Assembly (NCBI RefSeq): GCF_030345795.1
Contig: NZ_JAUALB010000001.1
Coordinates: 496,001 to 560,000, forward strand
DNA: 64,000 nucleotides
Source: Micromonospora sp. WMMA1363
Lineage (GTDB): Bacteria > Actinomycetota > Actinomycetes > Mycobacteriales > Micromonosporaceae
Reading direction: 5' to 3'
Of the stretch, positions 20,674 through 62,852 are shown in pieces. Within the stretch, counting starts at the first letter, position 1; each line of letters begins with the position of its first letter. The position numbers and the translations under genes are program-made. Under the pieces are notes generated by a model. That model had not been told where the DNA came from. It searched no databases and was given only the letters and a program-made list of their open reading frames with translations.

Positions 20674-20910
20674 TCGGACACTCCCAGTGCTGCTCGGGGT
20701 TCTCCCGTCGATCGCTACGGAGCGTGACGGTACGGGGATTGCGACAGCCGGTCAAGTGGTCGTGACCTTACCGTTGGGAGTGCTGCGGGAGTTGTCCCCA
20801 TTTCGTCGCCCTGAGCGCCGGGTCAGCGCCCGGCGACTGTCCGGGCCGTGACCACTGGTAACGTGGTCAGAGCCCCGGCCGGTCCCTGCGATTCGTGCCG
20901 GTCTTCCGAC

Positions 20911-20949
20911 GTCCTTTAACGACCCGTCCCGTGAGGCGGGAAAGGGGGT
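20911..20949 (+). promoter_or_regulatory. PyrR-binding leader RNA overlapping the pyrR ribosome binding site
   Basis: The leader shows the PyrR-binding stem-loop. CCTTT (20913-20917) pairs with AAAGG (20941-20945), and CCCG (20923-20926) with CGGG (20937-20940). The terminal loop holds the conserved purine-rich CGTGAGG. The 3' strand of the lower stem is the Shine-Dalgarno region AAAGGGGG, so UMP-bound PyrR should block ribosome access to pyrR and the genes coupled to it. This is translational control, as known for actinobacteria, not the transcription attenuation of Bacillus. A -10-like TAACGT lies at 20859-20864. Confidence 0.8.
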
Positions 20950-20954
20950 CCGCC

Positions 20955-21536
20955 GTGGCCTACTCACCGGCTGCCCGCTCGACGACCGCGCCGCAACCCT
21001 CGGTGAAGGTGATCCTCGCCAGTGCCGACGTGCAGCGCGTGGTCGACCGTATCGCCCACCAGATCCTGGAGAAGACCCAGGGCGCCCAGCACACCGTGCT
21101 GCTCGGCATCCCGACCCGAGGTGCGCCCCTCGCCCGGCGGCTCGCCGCCCGGATCAGCGCCTTCGAGGGGGTCGACGTCCCCGTCGGCGTGCTCGACATC
21201 ACCTTGTACCGCGACGACCTTCGCCAGCACGCCACCCGCGCGGTCGGGCCCACGGAGCTGCCTGTCGGCGGTATCGACGGCAAGCGGGTGGTCCTCGTTG
21301 ACGACGTGCTGTTCTCCGGCCGTACCGTGCGTGCCGCGCTCGACGCGCTGAACGACGTCGGCCGCCCCGCGTCGGTCCAGCTCGCCGTCCTGGTCGACCG
21401 CGGCCACCGCGAGCTGCCCATCCGCGCCGACTATGTCGGCAAGAACATCCCGACCTCGCTGGCCGAGAGCGTGAAGGTCACCCTCGCGGAGACCGACGGC
21501 ACGGACGAGGTCAAGCTTTTCGGGGGTGCCGCGTGA
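20955..21536 (+). CDS. pyrR: Bifunctional pyr operon regulator / uracil phosphoribosyltransferase
   Basis: The protein has the PRTase fold with the PRPP loop [21 protein letters not shown] and the N-terminal [22 protein letters not shown]. PyrR binds its own leader RNA when UMP is high and has uracil phosphoribosyltransferase activity. The GTG at 20955 sits six bases after AAAGGGGG. 193 residues fits the family. Its stop overlaps the GTG of the first of three junction repeats, which bridge to pyrB. Confidence 0.94.
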
Positions 21537-21686
21537 GCGCGAGGAGTGAGCTTGCGAGCCCCGCAGTCGCGAACGAGAGGTGGCGTCCGTGAGCGCGAGG
21601 AGTGAGCTTGCGAGCCCCGCAGTCGCGAACGAGAGGTGGCGTCCGTGAGCGCGAGGAGTGAGCTTGCGAGCCCCGCAGTCGCGAAC
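21533..21686 (+). repeat. Three tandem junction repeats between pyrR and pyrB
   Basis: Three copies of a 42-base core (starting GTGAGCGCGAGGAGTGAGC) begin at 21533, 21589 and 21645, a 56-base period. The first two units are 19-codon mini-ORFs ([19 protein letters not shown]) whose TGA overlaps the GTG of the next unit. The third runs in frame into pyrB ([20 protein letters not shown], then the pyrB start). A chain of GTGA overlaps thus links pyrR to pyrB without breaking translational coupling. The same core recurs at the end of argB; diverged copies lie in pyrC and before carA and argB. Confidence 0.9.
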
Positions 21687-21707
21687 GGAAGACCGGCAGA
21701 GCCCCGC

Positions 21708-22634
21708 ATGATCCGTCACCTGCTTTCCGGCGCGGATCTGGACGCCGCCACCGCGACCCGGATCCTGGACACCGCCGCCGAGATGGCCACCGTCGCCGGG
21801 CGTGAGGTCAAGAAGCTGCCTGCGCTGCGCGGCCGGACCGTGGTGAATCTCTTCTACGAGGACTCCACCCGCACCCGGATCTCGTTCGAGGCCGCCGCCA
21901 AGCGGCTCAGCGCCGACGTGATCAACTTTTCGGCGAAGGGCTCCAGCGTTGCCAAGGGGGAGAGCCTGAAGGACACCGCGCTGACCCTCCAGGCGATGGG
22001 TGCCGACGCTGTCGTCGTCCGGCATCCCGCTTCCGGAGCGCCGCACCGGCTCGCCGACTGGGTCGACGGCTCGGTGGTCAACGCCGGCGACGGCACCCAC
22101 GAGCACCCGACCCAGGCGCTGCTCGACGCGTACACGATGCGTTCCCGGTTGGGTCGGCTCGCCGGTCTCTCGGTCGCGGTGGTCGGGGACGTGTTGCACA
22201 GCCGGGTCGCCCGCTCCAACGTCCTACTGCTGTCCACCCTCGGCGCGAAGGTCACCCTGGTCGGCCCGCCGACACTCATCCCGGTGGACATCGCGGCGGC
22301 GCTCGCACCCGGCACCGACGTCTCGTATGACCTGGACGCGGTGCTTCCGCACTCGGACGTGGTGATCATGCTGCGGGTGCAGCGTGAGCGGATGAGTGAC
22401 TCCTACTTCCCGTCCGCCCGCGAGTACGCCCGCCGCTACGGCCTCGACGGCCCGCGCATGCGCCGGCTGCCCGAGCACTCGATCGTCATGCATCCCGGCC
22501 CGATGAACCGGGGCATGGAGATCACGCCAGAGGTGGCCGACTCGCCCCGCTCCACCATCGTCGAACAGGTCGCCAACGGCGTTTCTGTCCGGATGGCCGT
22601 CCTCTATCTGCTGCTCGGAGGGAGCAACCGGTGA
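21708..22634 (+). CDS. pyrB: Aspartate carbamoyltransferase, catalytic chain
   Basis: It joins carbamoyl phosphate to aspartate, the first committed pyrimidine step. The carbamoyl-phosphate loop [18 protein letters not shown] and the HPTQALLD motif (in [13 protein letters not shown]) are intact, as is [13 protein letters not shown] near the C-terminus. ATG at 21708 gives the family-like start [11 protein letters not shown] (308 residues). An in-frame GTG at 21645 inside the third junction repeat would add 21 residues and has a better-placed purine-rich stretch upstream, so an N-terminally extended form is possible. The stop overlaps pyrC by four bases. Confidence 0.94.
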
Positions 22635-23962
22635 CCGCGTACCTGATCACCAACGTGAGTGTCGTCGGCGCCGAGCCGACCGACCTGCTGATCCGCGACG
22701 GTGTCGTGACCGGGACCGGCGCGGGCATCGTCGCGCCGGACGCCACCGTGGTCGACGGCACCGGCCTGGTCGCTCTGCCCGGCCTGGTCGACCTACACAC
22801 CCACCTGCGCGAGCCGGGCCGAGAGGACGCCGAAACGGTCGAGACCGGCTCGCGGGCGGCGGCGCTGGGCGGCTACACGGCGGTGTGCGCGATGGCGAAC
22901 ACCTCGCCGGTGGCCGACACCGCCGGAGTGGTGGAGCAGGTCTGGCGGCTGGGCCGGGAGGCCGGGTTGGTCGACGTGCAACCGATCGGCGCGGTCACCG
23001 TCGGCCTCGCCGGCGAGTACCTGGCCGAGTTGGGCGCGATGGCCGATTCCGCCGCCCAGGTAAGGATCTTCTCCGACGACGGGCACTGCGTCGCCGACCC
23101 GAAGCTGATGCGCCGGGCCCTGGAGTACGTCAAGGCGTTCGACGGCATCATCGCCCAGCACGCCGAGGAGCCCCGGCTCACCGAGGGCGCGCAGATGCAC
23201 GAGGGTGAGGTGTCCACCCGCCTCGGCCTGACCGGCTGGCCGGCGGTCGCCGAGGAGGCGATCATCGCTCGGGACGTGCTGCTCGCCGAGCACGTGGGCA
23301 GCCGGTTGCACATCTGCCACGTCTCCACCGCGGGTAGCGTCGAGGTGCTGCGCCAGGCGAAGGCGCGGGGTGTGCGGGTCACCGCCGAGGTGACCCCGCA
23401 CCACCTGCTACTCACCGACGAGGTCGTGGGCGGGAGGGGCGAGCTGGCGAGCCCCGCGCTCGCGAAGGACTGGAGCCCCACAGGCGCCTACGACCCGGTG
23501 TACAAGGTCAACCCACCGCTGCGCACCGGCGTCGACATCGCCGCGCTGCGCACCGCGCTGGCCGAGGGCGTGATCGACATCGTCGCCACCGACCACGCCC
23601 CGCACGCCGTGGAGGACAAGGAGTGCGAGTGGGCGTACGCCCGGCCGGGCATGCTCGGCCTGGAGACGGCGCTGTCGATCATGCTGGACGTGCTCGGCCC
23701 GCAGTGGGATCTCATCGCCGAGCGGATGTCCCGCGCCCCGGCCCGGATCGCCGGCCTGGCCGACCACGGCCACGATCCGGCACCCGGCGCGCCGGCCAAC
23801 CTGACCCTGGTGGATCCGGCCGCCCGCCGCGCGATCGAGCCGGCGGAGTCGGCCAGCCGAAGCCGCAACACACCGTACGCCCGGATGACGCTGCCGGGTC
23901 GCATCGTGGCGACCTTCCTGCGCGGCGAGCCGACGGTCCTGGACGGAAAGGCTGTCAAGTGA
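22631..23962 (+). CDS. pyrC: Dihydroorotase with an in-frame repeat insertion
   Basis: It closes carbamoyl aspartate to dihydroorotate. The metal-binding [10 protein letters not shown] is near residues 54-63, [10 protein letters not shown] lies in the middle, and the catalytic Asp sits in ATDHAPHA. At 443 residues it is slightly long, because about 20 residues ([17 protein letters not shown] and neighbours) lie between HHLLLTDE and [12 protein letters not shown], where other actinobacterial enzymes have only a short link. That DNA matches the pyrR-pyrB junction repeat. All recognisable catalytic residues remain, so activity is likely. GTG start and GTGA overlap with pyrB. Confidence 0.93.
23426..23469 (+). 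repeat. Junction-repeat copy inserted in frame within pyrC
   Basis: About 35 of 44 bases match the pyrR-pyrB repeat core, and the stretch GCGAGCCCCGC is identical. It is read in the same frame as the other copies ([14 protein letters not shown] beside [14 protein letters not shown]) and begins at codon 266 of pyrC. Confidence 0.75.
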
Positions 23963-24021
23963 GCGCGAGGAGCGTAGCGCGGCGGGGTACCGCAGTCGCG
24001 AACGAAAGGCGGGCACGGTAA
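23959..24021 (+). repeat. Diverged junction repeat between pyrC and carA
   Basis: It starts on the GTGA overlap with the pyrC stop and encodes [20 protein letters not shown] before a TAA directly abutting the carA ATG. The ends match the other copies (GTGAGCGCGAGGAG and GCAGTCGCGAACGA), while the middle differs. Its final part shares GGGCACGG with the copy before argB. Confidence 0.8.
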
Positions 24022-25167
24022 ATGGGCAGGCGCAGGCCCGCGATCCTCGTTCTCGAGGACGGGCGCACGTTCCACGGCGAGGCGTACGGCAGCGTCGGGG
24101 AGACCTTTGGCGAGGCCGTCTTCAACACCGGTATGACCGGCTACCAGGAGACCCTCACGGACCCGTCATACCATCGGCAGGTGGTGGTGCAGACCGCGCC
24201 CCACATCGGCAACACCGGCGTCAACGGTGAGGACGACGAGTCCAGCCGGATCTGGGTCGCCGGGTACGTGGTCCGCGACCCTGCGCGGGTCGGCTCGAAC
24301 TGGCGTGCCACCGGCGGCCTTGAGGACCGGCTGGCCGCCGAGGGTGTGGCCGGCATCAGCGGCGTCGACACCCGGGCGCTGACCCGACACCTGCGTGAGC
24401 ACGGCGCGATGCGGGTCGGCGTGTCCAGCGTCGAGACCGACCCGCGGGCGTTGCTGGCCCGGGTTCACGGGTCGCCGCAGATGGTGGGCGCGGACCTCTC
24501 CGCCGAGGTGACCACCCCGAAGCCGTACGTGGTCGATGCGGTGGGCACCCACCGGTTCACGGTCGCGGCCCTCGACCTGGGCATCAAGCGCAACGTGCCC
24601 CGGCGGCTCGCCGCGCGCGGCGTCACCACCCATGTGCTGCCCGTCCACTCGACCGTGGATGACCTGCTCGCCACCGGTGCCGACGCGGTCTTCTTCTCGC
24701 CCGGCCCGGGTGACCCGGGCACCGCCGACGGGCCGGTTGCGCTTGCTCGCGAGGTGCTGACCCGCGAGGTGCCGTTGTTCGGCATCTGCTTCGGGAGCCA
24801 GATCCTCGGCCGGGCGCTCGGCTTCGGCACGTACAAGCTGGGCTACGGCCACCGCGGCATCAACCAGCCGGTGCTCGACCGCGCCACCGGCAAGGTCGAG
24901 GTGACCAGCCACAATCACGGCTTCGCGGTCGCCTTCCCCGGCACCGAGCCGGGTGCCGTCGTGCCGAACCAGGTGATCGACACCGAGTTCGGGGGCGTCG
25001 AGGTCTCCCACGTGTGCCTCAACGACAACGTGGTCGAGGGGCTGCGGGCGAAGGACGTGCCCGCCTTCACCGTCCAGTACCACCCGGAGGCGGCGGCCGG
25101 TCCGCACGACGCGGACTACCTCTTCGACCGCTTCGCCGAGCTTATCGAAGGCGGGAAGAATGCCTAA
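24022..25167 (+). CDS. carA: Carbamoyl-phosphate synthase small (glutaminase) subunit
   Basis: It hydrolyses glutamine and channels ammonia to CarB. The N-terminal CarA-specific domain ([20 protein letters not shown]) is followed by a class I glutamine amidotransferase domain with the nucleophile in [10 protein letters not shown] and the His/Glu pair in YHPEAAAGP. 381 residues is normal. The ATG immediately follows the TAA of the upstream repeat mini-ORF, so ribosomes could reinitiate there. It overlaps carB by eight bases. Confidence 0.95.
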
Positions 25168-61856: not shown

Positions 61857-62852
61857 ATGAGCCTCACCACCGATCTCACCTGCGCCCAGGCCAAAGCCGC
61901 CACGTTGATCGAGGCGCTGCCCTGGCTGGCCCGTTACTCCGGCTCGACCGTCGTGGTCAAGTACGGCGGCAACGCGATGGTCGACCCGGAGCTGCAACGG
62001 GCGTTCGCCGCCGACATGGTGTTCCTGCGCTACGCTGGCCTGAAGCCCGTGGTGGTGCACGGCGGGGGCCCGCAGATCTCGGCGATGCTCGGCCGGCTCG
62101 GCATCAGCAGCGAGTTCCGGGGCGGCCTGCGGGTCACCACCGCCGAGGCGATGGACGTGGTCCGGATGGTGCTCGTCGGCCAGGTCGGCCGGGAACTGGT
62201 CGGGCTGATCAACGCGCACGGCCCGTTCGCCGTCGGCCTCTCCGGCGAGGACGCCGGCCTGTTCACCGCGGTGCGACGGCCCGCGTACGTCGACGGGCAA
62301 CCGATCGACGTCGGCCAGGTCGGCGACGTGGAGTCGGTGGACGTCTCAGCGGTCACCGACCTGATCGCGGCCGGCCGGATCCCGGTCATCTCGACCGTCG
62401 CGCCCGACGCCGACGGCGTGCTGCACAACCTCAACGCGGACACCGCCGCCGCCGCGCTCGCGGTCGCCCTGCAGGCTCGCAAGCTGGTTGTCCTCACCGA
62501 CGTGCCCGGCCTCTACACCGACTGGCCGGACACCGGCAGCCTGGTCAGCGAGATCAGCGCGGCCGAGTTGGCGAGGCTGCTGCCGTCCCTGGAGTCGGGC
62601 ATGGTTCCGAAGATGGAGGCCTGTCTGCGGGCGGTGCGTGGCGGGGTGCCCGCCGCGCACGTCGTCGACGGCCGCGTCGCCCACTCCACGCTGCTGGAGG
62701 TGTTCACGTCGGAAGGCTTCGGAACGATGGTCGTGAGCGCGAGGAGTGAGCTTGCGAGCCCCGCAGTCGCGAACGGGGAAGGTGTCGTGAGCGCGAGGAG
62801 TGAGCTTGCGAGCCCCGCAGTCGCGAACAGGGAAGGCACGGTCTCGTCATGA
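61857..62852 (+). CDS. argB: Acetylglutamate kinase with a repeat-derived C-terminal tail
   Basis: It phosphorylates N-acetylglutamate, usually the arginine-inhibited step. [32 protein letters not shown] and [13 protein letters not shown] mark the amino-acid kinase fold. The normal protein ends at about GFGTMVV; here two in-frame junction repeats add about 40 residues ([13 protein letters not shown] twice) to give 331 residues. The ATG at 61857 is the family start; the in-frame GTG at 61794 in the upstream repeat could extend the N-terminus. The stop overlaps argD by four bases. Confidence 0.94.
62733..62840 (+). repeat. Two tandem junction repeats inside the 3' end of argB
   Basis: The 42-base core, identical to that between pyrR and pyrB, begins at 62733 and again at 62787 (54-base period, a multiple of three). 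Both are read in the argB frame and replace its original stop. Confidence 0.9.

Follow-up and report, generated by a model that had tools for sequence, protein, structure and literature searches.

A short repeat that stands between pyrR and pyrB in Micromonospora sp. WMMA1363 is likely to be a small, probably non-autonomous mobile element of the Micromonosporaceae that inserts at translation starts without disrupting translation. As read from its bases, the typical unit begins with G-TGA, which provides a new stop for the upstream gene together with a GTG start; it is mostly 3n+2 bp long (56 or 59 bp) and bears a Shine-Dalgarno (SD) sequence in its 3' tail. The repeat is widespread, and its association with start codons is real. 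Its mobile-type architecture is predicted to keep translation coupled, which would probably allow the element to spread through operons while the genes downstream stay expressed.

In the window, the whole 64,000-nucleotide stretch of DNA that was analyzed, three perfect 56-bp units lie between pyrR and pyrB (Table 1). The sequence-only reading had described three tandem 56-base units, each opening on a GTG that overlaps the preceding TGA, and TRF finds the same array (21532-21687, period 56, 2.8 copies, match 100%), with the pyrR stop inside the GTGA of unit 1. The unit is made up of a 42-bp core and a 14-bp tail; the tail is common to units 1 and 2, and unit 3 carries another, of 21 bp. Five perfect matches to the 42-base core are present in the window (21533, 21589, 21645, 62733, and 62787), against an expectation of 0.00 from 100 shuffles. 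The three identical cores at pyrR-pyrB would be explained most simply by local tandem amplification. ORF coordinates also agree with the description of units 1 and 2 as 19-codon mini-ORFs and of unit 3 as reading in frame into pyrB: the first two mini-ORFs consist of 19 codons and a stop and end on the TGA of the next GTGA, and the frame that opens at the unit 3 GTG is open through the pyrB ATG, 63 nt away (0 mod 3). The further claim, that stop/start coupling is never broken, holds for units 1 and 2 and not for unit 3, which is fused to pyrB without a stop. Since unit 3 has no stop before pyrB, pyrB would be read either as an N-terminally extended ORF or by a restart at its ATG, whose weak SD (-3.5 kcal/mol) is an exception among the SD hand-overs described below. 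The SD-like stretch ahead of unit 1 would be the original pyrB SD, which now precedes mini-ORF 1.

Table 1. Coordinates of the repeat units and adjoining genes in the window
Feature	Position	Strand	Remarks
pyrR	20895-21536	+	ORF as listed, its start being the ORF-list boundary; stop TGA 21534-21536 in the GTGA of unit 1
18 nt before unit 1	21515-21532	+	SD-like GGGGG, -8.1 kcal/mol to anti-SD
Unit 1	21533-21588	+	42-bp core and 14-bp SD-bearing tail; mini-ORF 21533-21592
Unit 2	21589-21644	+	identical to unit 1; mini-ORF 21589-21648
Unit 3	21645-21707	+	42-bp core and different 21-bp tail; ORF in pyrB frame
pyrB	21708-22634	+	conserved start MIRHLL; weak SD before ATG
In-frame copy within pyrC coding sequence	23426-23467	+	14-residue peptide
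Single unit, pyrC-carA	23959-24021	+	45-bp core, 18-bp tail; pyrC stop TGA 23960-23962 is the element's
Two units and tail, probable argB-argD junction	62733-62848	+	units spaced 54 bp; gene names by inspection

Other copies in the window show further ways in which the repeat meets coding sequence. The mini-ORF between pyrC and carA ends on a TAA (24019-24021) immediately 5' of the carA ATG at 24022. At what is probably the argB-argD junction, a single frame runs through the upstream ORF and both units as far as a TGA (62850-62852) that overlaps the ATG at 62849. Because that ORF reads through both units, its protein, probably ArgB, may gain a 39-residue C-terminal extension. Within pyrC, which encodes dihydroorotase, the element is in frame and constitutes an 18-residue loop insertion in 17 of 61 genomes, including the window's own; one of the 61 has a shortened insertion, and 43 have a short loop.

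A search for the core in the complete genome and in relatives had been suggested, and it returned a dispersed family. The window's genome holds 25 copies at no more than 3 mismatches to a 30-base pattern; with relaxed half-patterns, the number of sites is about 40 by eye. Tandem spacings in this genome range from 53 to 62 bp, and runs reach six 59-bp units. In one draw of genomes, matches came from all 37 of the genus (the window's own included) and from none of the 24 that represent other families of the order. In an order-wide draw with a 27-base pattern, 45 of 298 genomes matched: 44/44 of the genus, again with the window's own, and 1/10 of the other members of the family, with no match to this pattern in the 244 genomes of other families. 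Across the family, matches were found in 57 of 150 genomes and 20 of 44 genera. A GTDB scan gave 80 records among the matches listed, and all are from Micromonospora, Salinispora, Verrucosispora, or other Micromonosporaceae. The repeat is a dispersed family of the Micromonosporaceae. No match to the element was found in a phage collection. Plasmid records contained a single match, in pLB1 of M. terminaliae: here the element's TGA serves as the stop codon of an annotated lysophospholipid acyltransferase gene, with the start of the glycerol-3-phosphate dehydrogenase gene 59 nt downstream of the unit GTG. A string and peptide search of an open-access literature collection matched 0 papers, and no description of the element was found among the titles and beginnings of abstracts listed by topic searches. 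One contig of the window's genome (G000:C12, locus L285, 3022 bases) carries the same junction twice, in opposite orientations and with a base missing from one copy; this looks like an assembly artifact of the site at C1:2165710.

The sequence-only reading had staked the coupling idea on two properties of the genomic copies, their location at gene junctions and the conservation of frame. Location was assessed in 116 arrays taken from a pattern scan that was blind to position; these are a sample from among the matches listed, not a census, and coding frames were assigned by a GC3 heuristic instead of a gene caller. Among these listed arrays, 98 of 116 lie at a start codon by GC3 and 104 with an open-frame criterion added; 3 of the others are read through in frame and 9 fall in no class, although several arrays scored as "other" or "reverse" show a clear start on visual inspection (for example, L047, L052, and L106). 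Random positions in the same loci meet the GC3 start criterion in 349 of 6000 cases (5.8%). Of the 34 arrays in the window's genome, 29 lie at starts and 4 are read through, leaving 1 in neither group. We also collected 198 distinct arrays from the loci retrieved, with a resolvable start in all but 20. The downstream coding direction is forward in 189 of these, reverse in 5, and unclear in 4, and the upstream gene stops exactly on the element's TGA in 135 of the 186 arrays that have a forward upstream frame. The end of the core is usually 11 to 20 nt from the start codon. Among the 177 arrays whose start is resolved, a codirectional upstream gene is absent or unclear in 11, indicating that the target is start codons and not operon junctions per se. 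Neither in location nor in frame did the copies show the outcome that had been named as refuting, and the coupling idea stands.

Frame was scored as the distance from the GTG of the last unit to the gene start, modulo 3. This distance was in class 2 in 133 arrays, class 0 in 36, and class 1 in 9 (n = 178), compared with 107, 124, and 118 for random positions. Shared descent inflates these site counts; counted per junction cluster, the classes 2, 0, and 1 hold 50, 13, and 4 (n = 67; P = 7e-12 for class 2 and P = 1.5e-7 for the depletion of class 1). Tandem spacings are distributed similarly, at 39, 21, and 4 (n = 64). The mini-ORF stop is located at start+1 in 117 of 177 arrays and at start-2 in 14. 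Frame is kept across several combinations of length (core of 42 with tails of 14, 17, and 11; 45 with 14 and 17; 47 with 12). The 47-bp core encodes an altered peptide and mostly retains 3n+2, and so it is the start-to-start frame, rather than the peptide, that seems to be conserved.

Class 2 makes up 105 of the 123 arrays in which the upstream gene ends on the element but 12 of the 25 in which it stops earlier (Fisher P = 1.4e-4); by cluster, the same contrast is 38/46 versus 8/13 and is not significant (P = 0.135). When arrays with a 42-bp core were counted by hand after those with a 14-nt tail had been set aside, classes 2, 0, and 1 held 16, 28, and 8 (n = 52), which indicates that after a change of length only the scarcity of class 1 persists. 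Much of the class 2 excess may be due to the inherited 56- or 59-bp length of the unit. Class 0 arrays are read through or have their stop just 5' of the start, as at carA, instead of overlapping it. Class 1 is the distance that would break the chain. Its scarcity over 67 junction clusters provides indirect genomic evidence that ribosomes read the mini-ORFs.

The mini-ORF could alternatively be a conserved regulatory leader peptide, acting for example through ribosome stalling in pyrimidine genes. The core is near-invariant and open in frame 0, and the proportion of synonymous change in that frame slightly exceeds expectation in all three core types (observed/expected, 0.32/0.26, 0.50/0.29, and 0.34/0.27, in a set of 141 A-type, 15 B-type, and 36 C-type cores). 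Frame 2 shows a similar excess in the A and C types, however (0.34/0.24 and 0.35/0.24). Since the frame 2 excess resembles that of frame 0, the synonymous signal is not frame specific, and selection on the peptide was rejected on this basis, the resemblance applying to two of the three core types. In addition, B-type cores encode a different second half, and the proteins downstream are diverse across the 67 junction clusters. These data make a leader peptide very improbable.

An element that takes over the stop and start of its neighbors might also be expected to alter ribosome binding, and pairing energies with what we take to be the anti-SD sequence were computed for 75 arrays. This set leaves out 38 arrays with a degenerate unit upstream, arrays lacking an upstream stop on the element, and repeated flanks. 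Pairing averaged -8.17 kcal/mol before the element GTG, with 88% of arrays at -4.5 or better, and -9.34 kcal/mol before the downstream gene, with 99% at -4.5 or better; in-gene controls averaged -3.20 kcal/mol, with 27% at that level. At the pyrR-pyrB junction, the value is -9.07 in 40 genomes with an empty site, and in 20 with a filled site it is -8.12 before the element and -10.30 before pyrB. Because pairing is strong at both spots, the native SD appears now to front the mini-ORF and the tail to serve the gene. The bases before the first unit resemble those before the gene (1.36 versus 0.63 when shuffled, with 0 of 500 shuffles as high). A simple blunt insertion does not account for this match.

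Comparison of orthologous junctions revealed both empty and filled sites. Judged by length, 40 of 61 genomes have an empty pyrR-pyrB junction and 21 a filled one, where the filled class includes decayed and variant copies. On a tree built from the operon's own genes pyrB and carA (59 genomes; 2 of the 61 were dropped because they had no anchor), the filled state occurs in 21/59 genomes at pyrR-pyrB, with at least 16 changes of state, and in 31/59 at pyrC-carA, with at least 15. The filled pyrC-carA junctions belong to several subfamilies, one with GATCC-type ends. The carA-carB junction is empty in 61/61 genomes, although pyrR-pyrB and pyrC-carA have been filled repeatedly. In a clean pair, L317 (empty) and L322 (filled), a precise 59-bp insert lies between CTGTCAA and GTAATGG, with an end ambiguity of no more than 2 bp. 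In L322, pyrC retains its final residues and terminates at the TGA supplied by the element, and the former TAA now closes the mini-ORF. Empty sites elsewhere are represented by 43 candidate pairs, mostly at pyr junctions, at least 2 of which are false (L022 and L072). At some filled sites (L287 and L294), the bases directly 5' of the element are altered as well. Copy number at one junction varies among species, and it may vary between strains too.

Slippage at each gene start could produce a plain local minisatellite, and tandem copies within a site are indeed often identical. A single core that occurs at about 40 places in one genome (by eye) and genus-wide, together with empty orthologous sites, makes this hardly credible as the whole account, and for the step of dispersal, slippage is refuted by the same dispersed copies and empty sites. 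A more serious alternative is that insertion is unspecific and that selection leaves only those copies that happen to lie at starts or in frame. In-frame copies do exist (in the pyrC loop of 18 of the 61 genomes, one of them with a partial copy; also L105 and L118), and distances of 0 mod 3 are tolerated, which fits such a filter. On the other hand, a filter of this kind would be expected to leave copies in ordinary intergenic DNA as well, whereas only 9 of the 116 listed arrays fall in no class; the core usually ends at a set range from the start codon, and the clean L317/L322 insertion is flush with the stop/start overlap. We consider the filter unlikely, though it deserves real weight. Being "selected to insert" and having "only harmless insertions survive" amount to the same pattern in these data and cannot be told apart by them.

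A second start-codon repeat family, of 80 bp, is present in 42 of the 61 genomes; example loci are L300 (in G026), at a pyrB-pyrC junction, and L384 to L395. Its units differ from the 56/59-bp family in length and in most of their sequence. By hand count, 21 of 24 arrays among the matches listed have spacings of 2 mod 3, 3 have 0 mod 3, and none has 1 mod 3, and a mini-ORF of 26 to 27 codons ends on NTGA at 13 of 14 loci. Twelve of 16 distinct 80-bp units share at least 12 nt with the C-type core, the best match being the 17-nt string ACGCAGCGAAGCGGAGT. Because this string is common to both, the 80-bp family is not a fully independent witness to the frame rule.

The string ACGCAGCGAAGCGGAGT occupies the loop region of a candidate hairpin in both the 80-bp units and the 45-bp cores. 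In the 80-bp units, 3 pairs of an 8-pair stem have changed on both sides (covariation 0.199 versus 0.112 when shuffled; 8/500). In the 45-bp cores, one pair is A-U in 10 and G-C in 10 of 21 sequences (0.184 versus 0.134; 0/500). Both stems were chosen post hoc, and the alignments were hand-picked (13 of 16 distinct 80-bp units, each cut down to its 3' portion and the NTGA that follows, and 21 of 30 cores). The shared stem-loop could be a mobile module, which we regard as a lead.

Hairpin covariation in the two families and their common string would fit a REP-like structured element moved by a Y1 (RAYT) transposase. Against this, the stems were picked after the sequences had been viewed, and a single covarying pair may represent one event. 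Units folded in windows show no excess stability, and minimum energies of ten variants are no better than those of shuffles (z from -1.84 to 0.43). Although structure as such stays a candidate because of the covariation in two unit types, folding energy was rejected as an explanation of the core. PF01797, the Y1 transposase family, has 0 matches in the window's genome and is present in 17 of 61 genomes. The link to a Y1 transposase was likewise rejected, given a genome so rich in copies and lacking PF01797. A REP-like origin is improbable on these data, if less so than a leader peptide.

The reading that we favor is the insertion of a translation-transparent element at start codons. A unit would insert just 5' of a start codon, and the upstream gene would then end on the unit's TGA. 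The native SD would come to precede the mini-ORF, the SD of the element's tail would be taken by the downstream gene, and the original stop/start overlap would terminate the mini-ORF. A distance of 0 mod 3 would give an ORF fusion or a stop just 5' of the start and be tolerated; at 1 mod 3, ribosomes would overrun the next start out of frame, and such distances are rare. Extra units probably arise by tandem duplication. Ribosomes would pass through the mini-ORFs by termination-reinitiation, sparing operons polarity, and spread may proceed via DTGA microhomology or start-site specificity. This suggests how parasitic DNA could live in operons: the native ribosome-binding site and stop are given over to the mini-ORF, and replacements are supplied. 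It also bears on annotation, as gene starts and ends beside units are easily miscalled; the pyrB ORF is longer by 21 codons and the probable argB ORF by 39.

Among known systems, the closest in description are the mycobacterial interspersed repetitive units (MIRUs), which were reportedly described by Supply et al. in 1997. MIRUs run in the same direction as the adjacent gene, as do 189 of the 198 arrays here. In the available portions of the sources, MIRUs are apparently mobile repeats inserted at start codons in such a way that the ORF of the unit is coupled to the gene at -4 nt (PMC12548453), with unit lengths of 77 and 53 bp (PMC4213456) and membership in a class of short repeats of 40 to 100 bp (PMC2734929). 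As far as those portions go, the Micromonosporaceae element resembles them in being short, dispersed, and partly tandem (spacings of 53 to 62 bp and at most six units per run), in inserting at start codons with a coupled unit ORF (stop at start+1 in 117/177), and in length, since 77 and 53 bp are also 3n+2. The host lineage differs, being the Micromonosporaceae here. Features seen in the Micromonosporaceae element are the SD hand-over, sites in both the empty and the filled state, an additional family with longer units, and in-frame insertion within a protein. The element appears MIRU-like, by comparison of descriptions rather than of sequences and within what the sources' available text covers, and we do not call it a MIRU.

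More speculatively, MIRUs and the 56/59-bp and 80-bp families might represent a general class of "coupling-transparent" actinobacterial mobile elements, characterized by a fused stop/start, 3n+2 length, and a ribosome relay. Those of the Micromonosporaceae would also hand over SDs and perhaps have in common a hairpin module responsible for their movement. Their insertion may be directed to starts in active translation, their copy number may adjust the dosage of downstream operon genes, and, as pyrC illustrates, they may be a source of new peptides within proteins. We offer this generalization tentatively and would not expect all of it to hold.

REP/RAYT elements are small, non-autonomous dispersed repeats, and the present element is like them in this and in showing some hairpin covariation. 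It differs in having no excess folding energy, in a host genome without a Y1 transposase, and in its nearly constant gene-direction placement at starts. Membership in REP/RAYT fails on the absent transposase. Rickettsia palindromic elements are repeats accepted in frame inside protein genes. The pyrC insertions (17 full and 1 partial of 61) are of this kind but are a minority location for an element that is mostly found at gene starts. Finally, termination-reinitiation couples overlapping gene pairs (PMC6728339 and PMC10666635, in the portions available). The element uses the same ATGA/TGATG type of overlap as such pairs; in those portions of the two sources it is a property of ordinary gene pairs, whereas here it belongs to a sequence that is probably mobile.
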